This document shows positions 6,410-15,844 of a DNA stretch of 48,189 bases, in pieces (the first letter of the stretch is position 1; each line of letters begins with the position of its first letter). A model generated the notes under the pieces. The model saw nothing but the letters and a program-made list of their open reading frames with translations, ran no database searches and was not told where the DNA came from. Source of the stretch: Nitrospiria bacterium (lineage in GTDB: Bacteria > Nitrospirota > UBA9217); contig CAKKPG010000140.1 of the NCBI GenBank assembly GCA_919901555.1, positions 1 through 48,189 on the forward strand. Direction: 5' to 3'. The translations under genes and the position numbers were made by a program.

Positions 6410-8197
6410 TTACCCCAGCCTTTTCCTGAACTCCTCAAGCTGCTTTTTCAAACGCTCCGGCAGTCGGCTCCCGAACAGCGCAAAGTGCTTCTCGATGTCC
6501 GGGACCTCGGCCTTCCACTCCTTCAGGTCCACATTCATAAGGGCCTTCATATTGCCGGACGATATGTCGAGTCCGGAAAGATCGAGATCCCCTTCCTTCG
6601 GCATCAGCCCAATCGGCGTTTCTTTGGCCCCTATCTTGCCGTCCACGCGCTGGCACATCCATTTGAGCATCCGGCTGTTGTCGCTGAACCCGGGCCACAG
6701 GAACCTGCCTTCCGGGCTCTTCCGAAACCAGTTCACGTAGAAGATCTTCGGGGCCTTCGCCCCCAGCGTGTCCCCCATGGTGAACCAGTGCGTGAAGTAG
6801 TCGCCCATATGGTAGCCGCAGAAAGGTTTCATGGCAAACGGGTCCCGCCGCAGGTTGCCGACGGCGCCGATGTTCGCGGAGGTGGTCTCGGATGCGGCGG
6901 TCGCGCCCATGAACACGCCGTGGTCCCAGGAATATGCCTCGGTCACGAGCGGCACAACGCTGCTCCTCCTGCCGCCGAAGATGAAGATGTCGATGGCTAC
7001 GCCCTCGGGATTTTCCCAGTCCGGGCAGATGATCGGGCACTGCGAGGCCGGGGCGGTGAAGCGCGCGTTCGCGTGGGCCGCGTCGTCCTTGCTCGCGGGC
7101 GTCCAGTCGCGGCCTTTCCAGTCTATGGCATGGGCCGGAGAATCATCGGTCATGCCCTCCCACCACACATCGCCGTCGTCGGTGAGGGCGCAGTTCGTGA
7201 AGATGACGTCCTTCTTGAGCGTGTCCATGGCCATGGGGTTCGTGCCGTAGGATGTGCCTGGCGCGACCCCGAAGAACCCGGCCTCGGGGTTGATGGCGTG
7301 CAGCCTGTTGTCCCCGCGGACCTTCATCCAGGCGATATCGTCGCCGATGCACTCGCATTTCCATCCTTTTATGGACGGCTGCATCATGGCGAGGTTCGTC
7401 TTGCCGCAGGCCGACGGGAACGCGGCCGCGATGTGGTAGCGCTTCCCTTCCGGGCTCGTGAGCCGCAGGATCAGCATGTGCTCGGCCATCCAGCCTTCAT
7501 GCCGCGCCATGTTCGATGCGATGCGAAGGGCGAGGCACTTTTTCCCGAGCAGGGCATTGCCGCCGTAGCCCGAGCCGTAGGACCAGATCAGGTTCTCCTC
7601 CGGGAAATGGCTGATATACTTTTTCTCGATCGGGGCGCAGGGCCACAGGGCGTCCTTCTGTCCGGGCGCGAGCGGCGCTCCGATGGAGTGCAGACACGGA
7701 ATAAATTCGCCCTTTTCACCAAGCACGTCCAGCACCTTCGCGCTGACCCGGGTCATGATGTGCATATTGCATACGACATAGGGACTGTCGGTCAGCTCAA
7801 CGCCGATCTTCGCGATGGGAGAACCAATGGGACCCATGGAGAAGGGGATGACGTACATCGTCCGGCCTTTCATACAGCCCTGGTACAGTCCCCGCATGGT
7901 CTTCTTGAGCTCGTCGGGATGGACCCAGTTGTTCGTGGGGCCGGCCTCTTCCTGCGAGCGCGTGCTGATGTAGGTGCGGTCCTCCACGCGGGCTACGTCG
8001 CTGGGGTCGGTGCGGAACAGGAAGCTGTTCGGCCGCTTCTTGAGCGGGACCGCCATGCCGCGCTCCAACATGAGCGCCATCATCCGGCCGTACTCTGCTT
8101 TTGATCCGTCACACCAGGTGATCGAGTCGGGCCGACAGAGGTCAGCGACCTCCTTCACCCAGGTGTTCAGTTTTTCATTCCTTGATCCGCTCTTCAT
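6410..8197 (-). CDS. pckG: Phosphoenolpyruvate carboxykinase (GTP)
   Basis: A 595-residue cytosolic enzyme converting oxaloacetate and GTP to PEP, GDP and CO2 (EC 4.1.1.32). Motifs of the GTP class are clear: the P-loop [10 protein letters not shown] at about 261-270 with the mobile-loop Cys264, kinase-2 GDDIAWM at 285-291, [15 protein letters not shown] near 207-221, and the metal and substrate segment around MHIMTRVS at 145-152. Length matches the family (about 600). The ATG at 8197 is chosen because GAGGAG lies eight bases upstream; a TTG two codons earlier is too close to it. It is monocistronic, bounded by hairpins at 8351-8374 and 6321-6348. The GTP type is usual in many anaerobic delta-proteobacteria and Nitrospirota. 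Confidence 0.97.
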
Positions 8198-8350
8198 AAC
8201 CAAATCTCCTCAGCCCCCCTCTCCGCGTCCCCTGAGGCATCCCCTGGGGCGTCCCCATGATGCCATGGGGGAAAACCTCATTTTAATCCATGAGTAAACA
8301 ATACGAGGCGGGGGAATAGGGCGTATTATGCGCGATTGGAGGGGAAAAGT

Positions 8351-8374
8351 AAAGGGGGCTTTGCTGCCCCCTTT
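8351..8374 (-). terminator. Hairpin terminator after the barrel gene
   Basis: AAAGGGGGC (8351-8359) pairs perfectly with GCCCCCTTT (8366-8374). On the minus strand it follows the stop of the outer-membrane gene by about 20 bases and is succeeded by ACTTTTCC. It probably ends the four-gene envelope operon before pckG. Confidence 0.7.
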
Positions 8375-8396
8375 GCTGGAGTTATGACATGGCCGG

Positions 8397-9602
8397 TTAC
8401 ATCTCCCACTTCACGCCGGCCATGACCTGGTAGCGGTCATAGTCGTAGCGCAGGTCCGTGGAGTTCTGGTTCCAGTACTTGTACTCGGCCCAGAGACCCC
8501 ACTGTTTGTCGAGTGCGAAGTCGCCCTTGACCCGCGCTTCTATGCCGTCATAGGTCTTCTGAGGCTGACCGGAAACATCGAAGGCGAATGCGTTCGGATA
8601 GTCACGATCCCAGTACGTGAACCACGCCTGAAGCTTCATCCCTTTTCCCTCTCTCGTGATGATACGGATACGGTATTCATTCTTGGTGTAATCATTGTAG
8701 CCCACATAGTCATCGTTCCTGATGATATAGTTATAGTCAAGGTAGACCACGAGCCAATCGGCGAGCTTGTTTCGAAGCGTTACGCCGAAATCGTGGTACT
8801 GGTACACCAATGTCGTCGTACTAAAAGTCGTATTTAATTCCCTCGCGTGACGGTCGGTGTAGTCCTTCACGTAATAGGCATAGCTGAGGTTCGCCTTTGA
8901 GCGCTTGCCGAGCGGTACGTCGACGTCGGCTCCCAACTCGTAGTAGGTGTGGTCCTGCTGGACCGTGCCCACGGGGTCAGGGTAATTGCGGTCCTCGATC
9001 TCGGCGTGAATACGGTAGGGTAACGACGCGATGCGTTTCTCGTACTCGGCCTCCAGCCCGATGCTGTTATAGCTATAGCGGTCTCCTCCTACGCCTTCCA
9101 CGCCGTCATCGCGGTTCACATAGGTGTCTCGATGGAAACCGAGGAACGGGCCGACGTAGAAGGTGTCCTCGCGCCGCTCCTTCTTGCCGAGCACGAACTC
9201 CAGCCCCGCCTTCAGCGTACTGTCGTATTCGTCGGCTTTGTCCGTGTCCGACTCCGGGTAGATGTCGGCATTCAGCTTGAATGAGGTGAGGAACCGGCTT
9301 TTCGCATTGAGATCGGCGGAATGTTTTGCCTTCAAGGAAAGCGGGATGAAAAATCCTGTCTGGATAACCGTTGGTTGAAAAACGCCCTGGGCGAAATCAA
9401 AATAACCGGCGCTCGGCGCCAGGTAGGCGTTACTGTCGTAGCCGATGCCGATTTCAGCCTCGACAACATATGGCTCTTCCGCTGCGGCTTTGGGCGCCGC
9501 CCGTTTCACGTCATCCTTCTCTTCTGCCGGCGCTGCGAGCGGCGTGGCCACTGCGGCAGCCAGCAATGCCGCGGTCAAAACCGCTTTTATTTTCGTATGC
9601 AT
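8397..9602 (-). CDS. Outer-membrane beta-barrel protein
   Basis: A 401-residue exported protein. The start at 9602 has GGGAGG upstream and gives a clean signal peptide (HTKIKAVLTAALLAAAVATPLA, cleavage near APA-EE). The mature part is rich in alternating aromatic and polar strands (YDSNAYLAPS, NLSYAYYVKDY, VVYLDYNYIIRND, LWAEYKYWNQN) and ends DRYQVMAGVKWEM, typical of a barrel closing strand although the last residue is Met. I see no known porin motif. It is the last gene of an operon with a TPR protein, an ATP-grasp ligase and a transglutaminase-like membrane protein, only 16 bases after the TPR gene. It may be the outer-membrane component of that system, perhaps modified by it or exporting its product. 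Confidence 0.75.
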   Translation of the reverse strand: MHTKIKAVLTAALLAAAVATPLAAPAEEKDDVKRAAPKAAAEEPYVVEAEIGIGYDSNAYLAPSAGYFDFAQGVFQPTVIQTGFFIPLSLKAKHSADLNAKSRFLTSFKLNADIYPESDTDKADEYDSTLKAGLEFVLGKKERREDTFYVGPFLGFHRDTYVNRDDGVEGVGGDRYSYNSIGLEAEYEKRIASLPYRIHAEIEDRNYPDPVGTVQQDHTYYELGADVDVPLGKRSKANLSYAYYVKDYTDRHARELNTTFSTTTLVYQYHDFGVTLRNKLADWLVVYLDYNYIIRNDDYVGYNDYTKNEYRIRIITREGKGMKLQAWFTYWDRDYPNAFAFDVSGQPQKTYDGIEARVKGDFALDKQWGLWAEYKYWNQNSTDLRYDYDRYQVMAGVKWEM

Positions 9603-9618
9603 GTGTTCCCTCCCTGAG

Positions 9619-11547
9619 CTATGGTTTCTGCTGAATCGCATTCAGCTCTTGTTTGATCTTGTCATTCTTCGGCTCCAGACGGAGCGCCTTTTCAAGCTCC
9701 GTCCGCGCCTCGCCGGTCCGGCCTGCTTTTTTCAATACTCCCGCAAGCTGGACGCGCAGCTTGGCATTGGTGGCGTCGGCGGTCACCGCCTGTTCCAAAA
9801 TTTTTATCGCTTCAGCATGATCCCCCCTCTCTTCGAGAACCTGCGCGAGATGCTGCATGGCCTTGACGTTGTCGGGCTCGAGCTTGAGCGCCCTGCGCAG
9901 CGACTCCTCCGCCTTGCTCAGTTCCCCGGTCTCTTCATAGGCGAGCCCGAGGTTGGTCCACGCCAGGGCGTAGGTGTCGTCTTTGGCAAGGAGTGTGCGG
10001 TATTCCCGAATCGCTTCGGCGTACTGCTTCTTCTTCGCGTAGCGCACGGCAAGGTTGAGCCTCGCCTGTGGATACTCCGGACGTATCACGAGCGCTTTTT
10101 GATAGGCGGCGATTGCCTCGTCTTCCTTCTTCCACCGCGTATAGAGGATGCCGAGATTGAACCAGGCCTGCTCGTAGTTCGGTTCGTGCTTGAGTGCCGT
10201 TTTGAATGCCGGTGCCGCATTGTCCCACTGTTTCTGGCGCATGTACGCCAAGCCGAGGTTGTACCAGGCCTCGGGATAGGCTTCGCGCAGCTTGATCGCC
10301 TTTCGATAGCCTGCCACGGCCTCGGCATATTCCTTCCGCGCGACACGGACGAGGCCGATGTTGAGGTGCGCCTCGGGGTAGTCTCCCCTGCGCAGATCCA
10401 GGGCCTTGCGGTATTCACGGAGCGCGCCGTCATGATCCTTTTCGCCGTACGCGGCCCTGCCGAGGTTGAAGCGGCTCTCGGCGTGGAGCGGATCGCGTTT
10501 GAGGATCCACTGGAATTCAGCGCGCGCCTCCGCCCAGCGCTTGTCCGCGAGCAGCAGCAGCCCCAGGTTGTAGCGCGCCTTGGCGTATTCGGGATTATAC
10601 TGGATCGCCTTGCGGTAGGCATCCTCCGCTGCCTTCCGGTCGCCGAAGCTCGTCTGCATGAGGCCGAGGTTGAAGTAGGCGGGAGGATAGTTCGGCTTGA
10701 GCTCAAGGGCCTTGTCGATCTGGGCCTGCGCGCGCTTGCGGCCCGCGGGAGTGTTCGGCTCCAGCGATGCAAGGCCGAAGCGGGGCTCGATAGAGTCGGG
10801 CTTGAGCCGGATCGCGGCTTCGAAGCTTTTTCGCGCCTGTTCCTTCTTGTCAGGGCCGAGGCTGCGATATGCAATGCCAAGATTGTAGAGCGCCCGCGCC
10901 TTGCGCTCGCCCGCGGCCTTTTCCGACGCCTTTTCGAGCACAGCGGCGGCCTTCCGATAGTCCTTAAGCCTCGTCAGGGCGACGCCCAGGTTGTAGTGCG
11001 CCTCGAAGTGGTGCGGCATCCGGGCGATGAGCGCTTCATAATCCTTCACCGCCTCGGCGTAGCGGCCGGTCTGGGAATAGACGAGACCGCGGTTGAAATA
11101 GGCCCGGGGATACGCGGGTTTCGTGCGGAGAGCGCGGTTGAACTCTTCGAGCGCCTTCTGACGGTCGCCCTTGTGGTAATACAGGACCCCGAGGTCGTTG
11201 TGCGTCTGCGACGTGGCGCCGCGGGCCAGGATGGCTCGGTAGCGTTTCTCCGCCTCGTCCCACTTTTTCTCGGTCATGAGCCGGGCTGCTTCTCGGTACA
11301 GCGGGTCTGATGCGCTCTCCGTCGAAAGCTCGGGCATGTCCTCCCGGGCCTCGCCGGCTGCCTCTGCGTCGGTACGCACAGCGGCGGTGTCCGGAATGTC
11401 GATCACCGTGACTCGCTGCGCGTCGAAGGTCGCCTTGAACTGCACGTACAGCAGGACGAGAAAGAGGACCGCGATGATGATGACTACGGGGACGAAGCTT
11501 TCGCGGAGGATGCGGTATTTCGAATCAGACATGCCTGCTTTCCTCAT
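9619..11547 (-). CDS. Membrane-anchored TPR protein
   Basis: A 642-residue protein with one N-terminal membrane helix (VPVVIIIAVLFLVLLYVQF, residues about 19-37) and a periplasmic part made almost entirely of about fifteen tetratricopeptide repeats from residue 85 to the end. Each has the A-x-x-x-x-x-A and Y/F-N-L-G pattern (for example YPRAYFNRGLVYSQTGRYAEA). TPR solenoids assemble protein complexes. The ATG at 11547 overlaps the stop of the ATP-grasp gene (ATGA). A second ATG at 11532 (MSDSKYR) also has an AGGA site, so the first five residues are uncertain. It probably scaffolds the ligase/transglutaminase system encoded just upstream and the barrel downstream. Confidence 0.85.
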   Translation of the reverse strand: MRKAGMSDSKYRILRESFVPVVIIIAVLFLVLLYVQFKATFDAQRVTVIDIPDTAAVRTDAEAAGEAREDMPELSTESASDPLYREAARLMTEKKWDEAEKRYRAILARGATSQTHNDLGVLYYHKGDRQKALEEFNRALRTKPAYPRAYFNRGLVYSQTGRYAEAVKDYEALIARMPHHFEAHYNLGVALTRLKDYRKAAAVLEKASEKAAGERKARALYNLGIAYRSLGPDKKEQARKSFEAAIRLKPDSIEPRFGLASLEPNTPAGRKRAQAQIDKALELKPNYPPAYFNLGLMQTSFGDRKAAEDAYRKAIQYNPEYAKARYNLGLLLLADKRWAEARAEFQWILKRDPLHAESRFNLGRAAYGEKDHDGALREYRKALDLRRGDYPEAHLNIGLVRVARKEYAEAVAGYRKAIKLREAYPEAWYNLGLAYMRQKQWDNAAPAFKTALKHEPNYEQAWFNLGILYTRWKKEDEAIAAYQKALVIRPEYPQARLNLAVRYAKKKQYAEAIREYRTLLAKDDTYALAWTNLGLAYEETGELSKAEESLRRALKLEPDNVKAMQHLAQVLEERGDHAEAIKILEQAVTADATNAKLRVQLAGVLKKAGRTGEARTELEKALRLEPKNDKIKQELNAIQQKP

Positions 11548-12443
11548 GTTCGCGCCCCTTCCAGAATGGAACGCAGTCCCCGGACGTTTGCGTTCTGGAT
11601 CTCGAGCCCCGGCCGGACGTTGATCTCGAGCAGGACCGGGCCGCCTTGAGAAATGGAGATGTCCACGCCGAGGTACTTGAGCGGCACGGCCCGGGCCGCG
11701 CGAAGGCTTATTTCGACCACCCGGTCCCAGTACGGAACGGCGCGGCCGATGAGGTCCACCCCGGTGTCCGGGTGCTTGTCCACGGGATCTCCTTTCAGGA
11801 CTGCATGGACCGTGCGGCCGCTCGCGAGGTCGATACCCGCGCCCACGGCGCCCTGGTGGAGATTCGCCCTTCCTTCGGACGCCTTCGTCGGGATGCGGGT
11901 CATGGACAGGACCGGCTCGTCGCGGTGCAGGATCACTCGCACGTCGGCGAGGCCGAAGGGGCTCAAAACATTCATCTCCTCGTGCTGCACGATGCGGGCT
12001 TCAATGAGGGCGCGGTCGTGGAGGTCAAAGGAGTAAACGCCGAACATAATGTCCGAGATGTGCTTCTTGATGTCATGGATGGAATAGACCTTTCCGCTCA
12101 CGCCGACCCAGTCCTCTCCCTGCCTGTCCGCGATCACGATGATGCCCCCGCCGCCCCTGCCCTGCGAAGGCTTGATCACAAAATCATGGTATGAGCCGAG
12201 GTCGCTCTCGAGGCCCCGGAGTTCGTAGAAGTGGCTGTAAACACGGTAGGTCTCCGGCACGGGCACGCCGACCCGCTTCATGATCTCTTTCGTTACGATC
12301 TTATCGTCGGCGACGGGAAAGTCCTTGCGCGCGTTGTTCGGGTAGATGTAGTCGAGGTTGCGCTGGTTCATGCCGAGCACCCGGAGGGCATGATTTCGCG
12401 CTGTCTTCCAGCTGAAGGACATTTTACGCTTTTCCTGTTTCAT
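11544..12443 (-). CDS. RimK-like ATP-grasp ligase (alpha-L-glutamate ligase-like)
   Basis: A 299-residue cytosolic ATP-grasp enzyme. Visible motifs: FVIKPSQGRGGGGI (the Lys and glycine-rich loop that binds ATP, about residues 88-101), and near the C-terminus GGPVLLEINVRPGLEIQNAN, giving the Glu and Asn metal ligands. This matches the alpha-L-glutamate ligase-related group (the TIGR02291 type) that is regularly encoded beside the transglutaminase/7TM protein. Known ATP-grasp ligases of this kind form amide bonds between amino acids or peptides; the substrate here is unknown. It overlaps both neighbours by four bases, so all three are translated together. Confidence 0.85.
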   Translation of the reverse strand: MKQEKRKMSFSWKTARNHALRVLGMNQRNLDYIYPNNARKDFPVADDKIVTKEIMKRVGVPVPETYRVYSHFYELRGLESDLGSYHDFVIKPSQGRGGGGIIVIADRQGEDWVGVSGKVYSIHDIKKHISDIMFGVYSFDLHDRALIEARIVQHEEMNVLSPFGLADVRVILHRDEPVLSMTRIPTKASEGRANLHQGAVGAGIDLASGRTVHAVLKGDPVDKHPDTGVDLIGRAVPYWDRVVEISLRAARAVPLKYLGVDISISQGGPVLLEINVRPGLEIQNANVRGLRSILEGART

Positions 12444-14041
12444 TTCGGCGCCTCAAAAATGAGCCGCCGGAAGCGGACGAACTCGAGCATCCGCATGCCC
12501 ATCCACTTCCCGAGCCAGAGGTTAAGCGCAATCACGACGAGCAGGATCTCCGGGAAGGCGAGAACCATGCTCTGGAGGAAAAGGGAGTCCATGACCGCGT
12601 AGCATGCAGAAACGACCATGATCGTCACGAGCAGGATCTTTACGGCCGCGCGGAAACCCTGCTCCGTCTCGATGAGGGCGAACCGTTCCGCGGTGATGGC
12701 CAGGATGGCGATGGGGAACAGAGTGACATGCGCCAGCTCGAAGAGCCCGAATTGGACGCTCAGGATGGTCATGGTGAGCATGGTGATCACCACGCTGGTG
12801 AGCATCACGGCCATTTTGGGGGAGTGGAGGAGCTGCATCCAGTCCAGGGCCTTGCGGACGCCGGAGGAGAGGAGGATGATGAAGGTGAAGGCGGCCACGC
12901 CCCAGAGGAGCCCGGTCTCTCGCGCCGCTGCGGCGATGAGCGCCGGCAGGAACGTGCCGAAGGTCTCCACACCGATCACGTTTCTGAAGATGACCGTGAC
13001 CAGCGCGCCCAGCGGCAGCATGAGGATGATCTTGAGCAGGTTCTGGGAGATGCCGACCCGTTCAAAGATCTTGTACACGTTGAATATGTTCAGGTGCGAA
13101 GAGCTGAGCGCTTCCATGGCCTCGCGCCGGGGAACAAGGCGGCGAAGCATCTTGTAAAAGTACTGGAAGTTCACGTTCGCCGTGTGCTTGAAGAGCACGA
13201 GGTCGCCGTAGTAGAGGGTAAGGAAATTGGACGGGATCTCGGCGAAACGGTCGTTGATTGTGTCGAAGGGCACCCAGTGTCCGTTCACATACACCTCGAC
13301 CCACTGATGCGTCACCCGCTTGGTCCCCTGCTTCAGGATCAGCCCGCCCACGAGCCGCGCCGGAATGTTCAGCTTGCGCACGAGGGCTGCAAAGAGCCGG
13401 CTCTTGCCGTTACAACTCGCCTCGCCAAGCTTGAGCGCCGTCACGGCGTCGGTGTAGCCGGAAAAGTCCTTGTTCCTGAAATTGTCCTGAAGGCGGCGGT
13501 GGATGCGGGTGAGGGCCGAAAGGAGCGTCGGGTTCCGCTCGGGGATGATCCTGCGAAGCTCCTGCTCGATGAGCGGGTCGTTTACCTGGATGCCTTCGGT
13601 CGCTGCGAGGTGTTCGGCGAATTCCGCCGGATAGGACCTCGGAATTTCCAGGCGCTCGGGGATGCGGTAGCGGACGTGGCCGGCCTGGACCTGGAAGGAG
13701 TAGATGATGCTGTGCTGGCCGCGAACGTTTTCGGCCTTCCACGCCGCGATCCGGTTCTCCCCCTCGGACTGGATGGCCATGGCAAAGAGGCCTGACGAGT
13801 TCTGTTCGTCTGAGATGATCTGCCGCGCGTCGCTCCTGGGGAGATAGGTGGTGGTGGAGATGTCTTCTCCGTGTCCGTCCATCTGCATGCTCAGGTCTAC
13901 ATGGTAGCTGACGGCCGGGACGAGTCCTGCAAGGGGATAGTTCAGGACATACAGCTTATATCCCGCCATGCCGAGGGGAACAAGGGTGAGAAAGAGGAAA
14001 ACCGACAGGTATGCAATTCGCCGCGTTGCGTCCTTTTTCAA
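12440..14041 (-). CDS. Transglutaminase-like protein with 7TM C-terminus
   Basis: A 533-residue inner-membrane protein. TM helix 1 is at about 9-32. A periplasmic region follows and includes a transglutaminase-like domain with EASCNGKSRLFAAL (Cys210), VTHQWVEVY (His245) and WVPFDTIND (Asp260). Then come about seven TM helices from 335 to 515. This is the layout of the family named inactive transglutaminase fused to 7TM helices, yet a Cys-His-Asp set is present here. Translation starts at a TTG with GGGGAGG six to ten bases upstream. The stop overlaps the ATP-grasp gene. The family pairs with ATP-grasp ligases and peptidases in proposed peptide-modification systems; no peptidase is visible here. 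Confidence 0.85.
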   Translation of the reverse strand: MKKDATRRIAYLSVFLFLTLVPLGMAGYKLYVLNYPLAGLVPAVSYHVDLSMQMDGHGEDISTTTYLPRSDARQIISDEQNSSGLFAMAIQSEGENRIAAWKAENVRGQHSIIYSFQVQAGHVRYRIPERLEIPRSYPAEFAEHLAATEGIQVNDPLIEQELRRIIPERNPTLLSALTRIHRRLQDNFRNKDFSGYTDAVTALKLGEASCNGKSRLFAALVRKLNIPARLVGGLILKQGTKRVTHQWVEVYVNGHWVPFDTINDRFAEIPSNFLTLYYGDLVLFKHTANVNFQYFYKMLRRLVPRREAMEALSSSHLNIFNVYKIFERVGISQNLLKIILMLPLGALVTVIFRNVIGVETFGTFLPALIAAAARETGLLWGVAAFTFIILLSSGVRKALDWMQLLHSPKMAVMLTSVVITMLTMTILSVQFGLFELAHVTLFPIAILAITAERFALIETEQGFRAAVKILLVTIMVVSACYAVMDSLFLQSMVLAFPEILLVVIALNLWLGKWMGMRMLEFVRFRRLIFEAPK

Positions 14042-14247
14042 ACCGGTTCCTCCCCTGTCCGTAAGAAGCGCGCTGCCGCCTTCTCAGGAAAAATCGCCAA
14101 CTGACGAAGGTCGTATACTATACCTCTTTTTAGCGATTTTCCACTATTTTTTTGGTTAAAAATTTGGGATAGTCCAGTGGGAAAGGAGCAAGACTACCGT
14201 TGCCTGCCCAAACGCGGATGCGAAGCAACGGGAGGCATGGCTCCCTC

Positions 14248-15009
14248 TCAGCGCTGGATGCCTGCCTCCTCCATGATCACGCTGTATTTATAGCCTGACC
14301 CGAAATCCTTGTCCTTATACACGGTGCCTTTCATCGTCACCACGTCACCGACGGCCGGAAGGTCCTGGGACGTGGCCACGAGGTTGTGGGTTCCCTTGCC
14401 GGGGTCGCCGGTGCCGTCCTGGAGATGGATCCAGTTTTTGCCCATGATCCCTGCGGAAACCTTGACGACCTGCGCCCGCACAACGGCCGTTTTCTTGTTC
14501 AGCGCTGCGCCTTTCTCAGAGATCTCGCCCACGGTGTACGCGTCGGGGCCTTTGGCCTTGTCTACTTTGACGTTCTTGCCCGGAGAAGAAGCAGCGGCCT
14601 TGCTCACCGGCGCTTTGGCCGTCCCTGCCGAACCGTGCGCCCCGCTCTGCGCCGACAAGGGCCCGCCGGAAAATGTGATGACGGCGAATGTCCTGCCCAG
14701 GGTCTTGCTCGTAAAGTTTTCCATGGCCGGGCCGGGCTGCAAAGCCACCTTCTGCCCTACGGAGACCTTCATTTCCGGAACAGCAACCCACGTCTTTTTC
14801 CCGCCCTTCTCAAGGCGGACGTAGGTGTACCCGCCGGCGTTCATCGTCTCTACCACCTTGCCGGAAAGGCCGGACTCTTCCGTCGGAGCATTCGCTCCGG
14901 GTTTGAGCGGCGCCGGCACGCCGGGCGCCTTCGGCGGGGCCGCAAGGGCGCTCTCACTTCCCGGCAGCGCCAGGAGCGCAAGGATCAGAAAAAAAAGAGA
15001 CCGTTTCAT
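14248..15009 (-). CDS. Periplasmic protein with two OB-fold-like domains
   Basis: A 253-residue exported protein. The signal peptide is KRSLFFLILALLALPGSESALA. The first domain (about 47-115) has GKVVETMNAGGYTYVRLEKG followed by KKTWVAVPEMKVSVGQKV, an OB-like barrel. A low-complexity Ala/Ser/Pro linker follows. The second domain (about 160-250) has VVRAQVVKVSAGIMGKNWIH then LQDGTGD, and TMKGTVYKDKDFGSGYKYSV, the pattern of periplasmic nucleic-acid-binding-like OB folds often annotated only as DNA-binding. It lies 43 bases downstream of the nine-heme cytochrome and is probably cotranscribed. A role in electron transfer or cytochrome handling is inference from context. Confidence 0.7.
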   Translation of the reverse strand: MKRSLFFLILALLALPGSESALAAPPKAPGVPAPLKPGANAPTEESGLSGKVVETMNAGGYTYVRLEKGGKKTWVAVPEMKVSVGQKVALQPGPAMENFTSKTLGRTFAVITFSGGPLSAQSGAHGSAGTAKAPVSKAAASSPGKNVKVDKAKGPDAYTVGEISEKGAALNKKTAVVRAQVVKVSAGIMGKNWIHLQDGTGDPGKGTHNLVATSQDLPAVGDVVTMKGTVYKDKDFGSGYKYSVIMEEAGIQR

Positions 15010-15052
15010 AGGGACATTTCCTTTCTTGAACCGTAGTTATTTGGGTCGTCAA

Positions 15053-15844
15053 TCAGATGTTATGACAGTGCACGCAGAGCCCCATCGTTGATTTCGCGTC
15101 ATAACGGAAGAGCCTCACGGAGTCCGAGCTGTGCGGGTTGTGGCAGCTTCCGCAATAAAAGGGCTTCCCCGGCCTCTTCGTGTCTTTTATCTCCTTTTTG
15201 CCCTTTTTGCCGATGGGGTGGCCCGCTGAGGAAAATCCTACAATGGCATGGGGGCTCTTTTCCACGGCGGGATGGCAGCCCAAGCAGAGCTCAACGGGTT
15301 CTTTTACGAGCAGGTCCATGAAGTCCGTGGAGTGAGGATTATGACAGTCCGGGCACATGCCGGCCGCCACGGGCGCATGGACATTCTTCCGGGAAAACCC
15401 TGCCTTGTCGTGACAGGTGAAACAGAGCGCCGGGGGCGCTGAGACGAGGAGCCTGGCATTCTTTGACGAGTGCGGGTTGTGGCACCCGGTGCAACCCATT
15501 GCCACGGCGGCATGGACGTTCTTTTTGGTGAACAGGGCCTTGTCGTGGCAGCCGTAGCAGAGGTCGGGCTGGTCAACAGAGAGCCCCCGGGCGATGGTGT
15601 TCGTTTTCTTGTGCGGCGCCTTGCTCGCATCGATACCCGTGTGGCACGTGGGGCACCCCATCGGGACCGCAGGGTGCACATTCTTCTCCTGGACGAGCTT
15701 TTTGTGGCACTGGAGGCAATCAACTTCGGCGGAGAATGCTGCGGATGGAATGATGACGGCGAACAGCAGCGCACAGCCGATGCAAAGAAACTTGAGGACA
15801 CCGTGGACCGGCCGGCACTGCCGAGACAGCGTTCCCGGAGCCAT
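15053..15844 (-). CDS. Nine-heme c-type cytochrome, doubled CXXCH type
   Basis: A 263-residue exported cytochrome. The signal segment is FLCIGCALLFAVIIPSAAFSA. Nine heme-binding sites follow in order: CLQCH, CPTCH, CYGCH, CTGCH, CFTCH, CPDCH, CLGCH, CGSCH and CVHCH. Several are followed by NPHSS or NPHST and are spaced as pairs, the doubled CXXCH motif. Such proteins carry electrons in the periplasm or at the surface of metal- or sulfur-compound-respiring bacteria. A GAGGTGA site precedes the ATG. The downstream OB-fold protein is 43 bases away. The electron partner cannot be told from the sequence. Confidence 0.92.
   Translation of the reverse strand: MAPGTLSRQCRPVHGVLKFLCIGCALLFAVIIPSAAFSAEVDCLQCHKKLVQEKNVHPAVPMGCPTCHTGIDASKAPHKKTNTIARGLSVDQPDLCYGCHDKALFTKKNVHAAVAMGCTGCHNPHSSKNARLLVSAPPALCFTCHDKAGFSRKNVHAPVAAGMCPDCHNPHSTDFMDLLVKEPVELCLGCHPAVEKSPHAIVGFSSAGHPIGKKGKKEIKDTKRPGKPFYCGSCHNPHSSDSVRLFRYDAKSTMGLCVHCHNI

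Follow-up and report, generated by a model that had tools for sequence, protein, structure and literature searches.

RloABC is an operon for osmotic stress tolerance in Pseudomonas aeruginosa, which was the subject of a genetic study in 2025 (PMC12239564). RloA cleaves poly-glutamate, the defects that arise without three RloA retropepsins are suppressed when rloB or rloC is deleted, and rloABC mutants show osmotic, cell-shape, biofilm, and antibiotic phenotypes (PMC12239564). A RloB homolog was also shown to influence vesicle production in Shewanella (PMC12096838). RloB itself is known as an "inactive transglutaminase". Here we describe a four-gene operon in contig CAKKPG010000140.1 of a Nitrospiria bacterium (assembly GCA_919901555.1; positions 1 to 48,189, the whole of which is called the window below), in which homologs of RloB and RloC are followed by a tetratricopeptide repeat (TPR) protein and an outer-membrane β-barrel. 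This four-gene system is a real and widely spread extension of the RloB/RloC pair, and only a stripped-down relative of its first two genes has been studied so far. The window belongs to a sister clade of RloB in which the enzyme is apparently alive, and the two extra envelope partners supply a possible destination for its product, so that what RloB and RloC make, and where the product goes, becomes directly testable. All results given here were computed, and nearly all carriers of the system are metagenome assemblies.

Organization of the Operon

All four genes are carried by the minus strand and run from 14041 to 8397 in the order transglutaminase-7TM, ATP-grasp, TPR, and barrel:

12440..14041, minus strand: gene 1, transglutaminase domain on a seven-helix membrane (7TM) domain, RloB homolog, 533 aa
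11544..12443, minus strand: gene 2, ATP-grasp amidoligase, RloC homolog, 299 aa
9619..11547, minus strand: gene 3, TPR protein, 642 aa
8397..9602, minus strand: gene 4, signal peptide and outer-membrane β-barrel, 401 aa

Genes 1 and 2 overlap by 4 bases (ATGA), as do genes 2 and 3 (ATGA), genes 3 and 4 are separated by a gap of 16 bases, and a hairpin closes the operon; the first-pass annotation of this stretch had described the same compact layout, which we confirmed. Gene 1 starts with TTG behind a GGGGAGG-like ribosome site. An alternative start of gene 3, 15 bases further in (MSDSKYRILRES), agrees better with its relatives.

Relation to RloABC

The first two genes of the window are a 7TM_transglut protein followed by a TIGR02291/PF14397 ATP-grasp protein, which is the gene order of rloB-rloC, and they share 25–30% (gene 1) and 39–45% (gene 2) identity with the canonical loci of Nitrospirota, the key ATP-grasp residues being identical to those of RloC. 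In RloABC, however, a secreted retropepsin, RloA (PF05618), precedes RloB, the transglutaminase domain of RloB has lost its Cys and His while the triad of the window is intact, and neither a TPR protein nor a barrel is present. RloA adjoins 38 of 39 canonical RloB genes but none of the intact-triad genes (0/44 loci), and no PF05618 gene was found in the genome of the window; an RloA/RimB-family gene is absent from 30/45 genomes with the system, including that of the window, although most of these are draft metagenome-assembled genomes (MAGs). The window clade and canonical RloB form separate supported branches of the tree (Shimodaira–Hasegawa-like approximate likelihood ratio test, 99 vs. 97). 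Because RloA is missing, the triad is alive, and gene 1 scores only 163 bits against the RloB model NF052267, whose cut-off is 900, the four-gene system falls outside RloABC as defined.

One proteobacterial MAG, G357, carries the four-gene system and a canonical RloABC together (L047 and L113). A simple replacement of RloA by an active transglutaminase domain was considered and is weakened, since G357 carries both.

A Nitrospirota locus, L024, is a hybrid between RloABC and the four-gene system, with the following gene order: an RloA-type gene, a member of the barrel family of the window (7341-8516), a retropepsin-7TM_transglut fusion without transglutaminase (L024:8648-10592), and an ATP-grasp gene. 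The 7TM platform thus carries a retropepsin in some cases and a transglutaminase-fold enzyme in others, and the barrel accompanies it. Most simply, both kinds of domain would act on one kind of peptide product, which the barrel would receive. In L108 (6430-11417), the transglutaminase-7TM and ATP-grasp parts are encoded in one open frame of ~838 residues with the triad intact, and a TPR gene comes next; the fusion connects the two enzymes and places the ATP-grasp at the cytosolic end of the 7TM domain. L108 lies deep in the clade, where its placement is unsure (end branch 1.61).

The first-pass annotation knew of no described function for the four genes together. As a set, they are indeed not described in the literature that we searched, which did not include the 2009 amidoligase survey (Iyer et al.), where a larger operon may be mentioned; the statement does not hold for the relatives of genes 1 and 2, since RloB and RloC have been studied (PMC12239564).

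Conservation and Distribution of the Four-Gene Unit

A 7TM_transglut gene is present in 18 of 345 Nitrospirota genomes, five of which have that of the window's kind (the window, G014, G031, G039, and G138) and 13 other kinds; the complete four-gene order was found in the three of the four phylum relatives whose contigs are long enough. A genome scan with the protein of the window alone gave no matches, while scanning the species-genome collection with the gene 1 alignment only returned 44 loci. There the TPR gene is third in all 40 loci with room for it and the barrel gene fourth in 31 of 36, all four genes being on the same strand and mostly overlapping or at most 50 bases apart (-4 to +50 bp). 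It had been predicted that the four families belong together, and that the idea would fall if the last two genes did not co-occur with the first two in relatives; they do co-occur, and the prediction stands. A chance arrangement is rejected because dozens of genomes share the gene order and strand.

The full set is found in Gammaproteobacteria, Nitrosomonadales, Zetaproteobacteria (Mariprofundaceae, Ghiorsea), Deltaproteobacteria, Desulfobulbaceae, Nitrospirota, and Flavobacteriales, and the system is spread over at least five bacterial phyla. The distances between the four proteins are correlated (Mantel r 0.86–0.89, and 0.61–0.77 without Flavobacteriales). Among 340 genomes of the phylum, strong matches to the barrel profile occur in six, namely the five with the system and G324, which has the retropepsin variant; outside genomes carrying the system, the barrel family is nearly absent. 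It is well supported that the four genes form a single unit that is conserved and inherited together.

Gene 1 of the window groups with Deltaproteobacteria in the tree and is missing from 13 further genomes of the family to which the window belongs, and the operon therefore appears, from these sequences, to move horizontally as one block. The plasmid collection contained no member of the window clade, only distant RloB-like matches. No other gene family is widely shared among the neighbors of the loci. An upstream TPR/YfiO-like lipoprotein is limited to ~10 loci and falls into no single tight family.

An Intact Transglutaminase Site on the 7TM Platform

The product of gene 1 matches 7TM_transglut (PF14402, 170 bits), Transglut_core (PF01841, 67 bits; cut-off 23 bits), and Transglut_i_TM (PF14400, 30 bits), and consists of a single N-terminal helix, a periplasmic β-sandwich and transglutaminase-fold domain (about residues 43–304), and the seven-helix 7TM_transglut domain. 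The codons of the catalytic triad are as follows:

13412..13414, minus strand: Cys210 (EASCNGKS), modeled as the first residue of a helix
13307..13309, minus strand: His245 (HQWVEV), modeled as the first residue of a strand
13262..13264, minus strand: Asp260 (PFDTIND), modeled as the last residue of a strand

In the alignment, Cys210 is present in 46/46 members of the window clade vs. 0/41 canonical RloB proteins, a conservation that is partly by construction, because one peptide pattern of the scan for the 44 loci contained the Cys motif. His245 is present in 46/46 vs. 1/41, and Asp260 in 43/46 (Cys in three distant members) vs. 22/41. The Cys is also kept in the five phylum members and L108, all of which were found by profile, and the His, the Asp, and the downstream genes were not selected for. 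The modeled triad has the usual helix-strand-strand geometry, with His245 and Asp260 on neighboring strands. The periplasmic domain thus combines a papain-like transglutaminase/cysteine protease fold with a Cys-His-Asp triad; among solved structures it matches 3isr best, a putative cysteine protease (Z 24.0; root-mean-square deviation 2.9 over 253 residues), and LapG (Z 9.0) and TgpA (Z 8.8) also belong to its fold neighbors. It is well supported by alignment and model that the active site is intact in the window clade and the enzyme apparently alive, with a presumed activity in hydrolysis or transfer. We know of no link of 3isr, TgpA, or LapG to an ATP-grasp protein, a 7TM_transglut domain, a TPR protein, or this barrel.

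The ATP-Grasp Ligase

Gene 2 encodes an ATPgrasp_ST protein (PF14397, 232 bits; TIGR02291-like) whose closest solved relatives are the S6-glutamate ligase RimK and other α-L-glutamate ligases. It carries the ATP/Mg-binding residues and, in alignment with RimK, a RimK-like C-terminal motif. K48, K91, D261, E273, N275, and an RxNLH-like motif are kept both in the window clade and in RloC, K91, D261, E273, and N275 are present in at least 97% of the aligned ATP-grasp sequences, and no residue of the alignment separates the ATP-grasp proteins of the window clade from RloC at 90%. RimK, likewise an ATP-grasp enzyme, ligates glutamate and has a retropepsin partner, RimB, which cleaves poly-glutamate, but the RimK-RimB pair is cytosolic, targets a ribosomal protein, and has no membrane parts.

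The TPR Protein and the Barrel

The product of gene 3 matches TPR families of Pfam in up to 14 separate stretches, corresponding to about 14 repeats behind an N-terminal membrane anchor (RESFVPVVIIIAVLFLVLLYV). This hydrophobic anchor (RESFVPV...) is kept in 39/41 relatives, with a lipobox there in L073 and L074, and the repeats therefore probably lie in the periplasm, as far as such signals predict.

The product of gene 4 does not match any Pfam family. Its AlphaFold2 model shows a signal peptide and a confident 16-strand barrel (predicted local distance difference test score, 88.6; predicted template modeling score, 0.82), and 19/33 barrel proteins end with Phe or Tyr, as is typical of outer-membrane proteins. 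Of the four proteins, the barrel has diverged most (mean identity, 29%), and a PDB profile search gave no sequence match, PgaA, BcsC, and AlgE included. The Foldseek list contains the polysaccharide secretin 4y25, AlgE, and BcsC amid many porins. The fold search was dropped as evidence for export, since it does not distinguish a polymer exporter from a general porin, and the isoelectric points of the TPR protein and the barrel were dropped as a hint to substrate charge, being too variable among relatives.

Comparison with Exopolysaccharide Secretion

The synthase-dependent exopolysaccharide systems (Alg, Pel, Pga, and Bcs) combine synthesis at the inner membrane, a periplasmic modifying enzyme, a long TPR-type protein, and a large outer-membrane barrel (PMC9384988). 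The window resembles them in these respects, its TPR protein being separate as AlgK is, and its periplasmic TPR-type scaffold (a location predicted from anchors and lipoboxes) and 16-strand barrel agree with the scaffold and the 16 or 18 strands of those systems. The differences are that the window operon lacks a glycosyltransferase and a cyclic di-GMP part, the maker is an amide-bond ligase, and the barrel has no detectable sequence homology to PgaA, BcsC, or AlgE. Because a glycosyltransferase is absent from the operon, the four-gene system is no member of this class.

A Possible Trans-Envelope Machine and its Alternatives

The arrangement proposed in the first-pass annotation, with a cytosolic ligase, a periplasmic transglutaminase, a membrane-anchored TPR protein, and an outer-membrane barrel, fits the models, the TPR anchors, and the L108 fusion. 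We propose, with a probability of about 0.42, that the four proteins form a trans-envelope machine for the processing and export of a peptide. The cytosolic ATP-grasp enzyme, bound to the 7TM domain at its cytosolic end, would link amino acids through amide bonds to give a short and probably acidic chain, as suggested by its relation to RimK and RloC. The 7TM domain would move this chain, or a carrier-linked form of it, through the inner membrane, and the intact papain-like transglutaminase domain may cut the chain on the periplasmic side or transfer it to an acceptor amine, acting in cis as the separate retropepsin RloA acts for RloB/RloC. The TPR superhelix, anchored in the inner membrane, would then lead the product to the 16-strand barrel for exit or display. 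A more specific version, which seems to us possible but doubtful, is that of a dedicated Gram-negative secretion machine for an amino-acid polymer made by an ATP-grasp enzyme (e.g., poly-α-glutamate), with an active periplasmic transglutaminase as processor and horizontal spread over at least five phyla; by its anatomy, it would be the peptide-bond counterpart of the alginate, Pel, PNAG, and cellulose systems. If the export model is true, the operon represents a new class of secreted polymer system.

Several observations weigh against this model. Versions with three genes and no barrel occur in Helicobacteraceae (L064) and Spirochaetes (L070), and in Rhodothermaeota and Hydrogenedentota (L073–L075) the place after the TPR gene is taken by a different secreted protein. 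General porins score equal to or above polysaccharide exporters in the barrel fold comparison, the Cys count is in part built in as stated above, and G357 has both systems, so that the transglutaminase is not a mere stand-in for RloA. Moreover, export is read from the anatomy of the parts, and substrate, polymer, and activity have been observed for no member.

In an alternative that we regard as unlikely, what the ATP-grasp enzyme makes is coupled by the transglutaminase domain to amines of an envelope protein, either the barrel itself or a protein of the cell surface, and the barrel would serve as acceptor or anchor instead of an export pore. A transglutaminase fold with an intact triad is consistent with this, as is the strong divergence of the barrel, expected of a surface-exposed target, and RimK does modify a protein (PMC12239564). 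However, a conserved acceptor tail was not noticed in the barrel alignment, a scaffold of ~14 repeats exceeds the needs of a single acceptor, and in L024 a retropepsin, expected to be a cutter and not a ligator, stands beside the same barrel. We favor a role in which the product of the ligase is processed and exported over one in which the barrel is modified.

It is likewise improbable that the system tunes peptidoglycan or osmotic tolerance as RloABC does, with the transglutaminase as a peptidase on an envelope peptide or an adhesin (cf. LapG) and the barrel as a companion channel or sensor. The phenotypes of the RloABC mutants (PMC12239564), the vesicle production in Shewanella (PMC12096838), and the presence of LapG and TgpA among the fold neighbors speak for such a role in envelope homeostasis, but RloABC manages without a TPR protein or barrel, the coexistence of both systems in G357 suggests different jobs, and a widely shared linked neighbor such as an adhesin gene was not found around the loci. 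That two devices, transglutaminase-7TM with ATP-grasp and TPR with barrel, are joined by co-transfer and co-regulation only is very improbable: L064 and L070 do retain the first three genes without this barrel, and L024 has the barrel without a TPR gene, but the L024 barrel remains with the 7TM/ATP-grasp pair despite the absence of both the TPR protein and the transglutaminase, strong barrel matches in the phylum are restricted to genomes with such a pair, and the protein distances are correlated.

Flanking Features and Variant Loci

Two further features border the operon:

8345..8374, minus strand: intrinsic-terminator-like hairpin at the operon end, 9-bp stem, 6-base loop, short U tract
14042..14247, minus strand: presumed promoter region, the 206 intergenic bases ahead of gene 1, AT-rich around 14120

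The hairpin reads AAAGGGGGC-AGCAAA-GCCCCCTTT, a perfect 9-bp stem, followed by ACTTTT; its folding has a z of -1.8, with equally good folds in 7 of 200 shuffles. The consensus scanner, whose silence carries little weight, did not list this hairpin and reported no sigma-70-like site on the minus strand within the operon; it found no consensus promoter in the 206-base region either. Downstream of the terminator, on the same strand, lies a gene (6410-8203, minus strand) that we take from its sequence to be a GTP-type phosphoenolpyruvate carboxykinase. Upstream, also on the same strand (14248-15844, minus strand), are a secreted 253-residue protein without a Pfam match and a 263-residue multihaem CxxCH protein.

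In L073 (8022-9740), L074 (13885-15546), and L075 (13465-15165), the protein that replaces the barrel is secreted and has ~550 residues; part of it is sortilin/BNR-like, and it matches outer-membrane efflux proteins weakly. In these lineages, Cys takes the third triad position. Stand-alone 7TM_transglut proteins of Gammaproteobacteria (L109:7130-8761, L110:7399-9072, and L111:7647-9440), with an incomplete triad and no adjoining ATP-grasp gene, form a third branch of the family. Canonical RloB also has a fast-evolving gammaproteobacterial subgroup (L081, L084, L086, L088, L091, and L096), whose branch is long (0.96 changes per site) and whose members still adjoin RloA.

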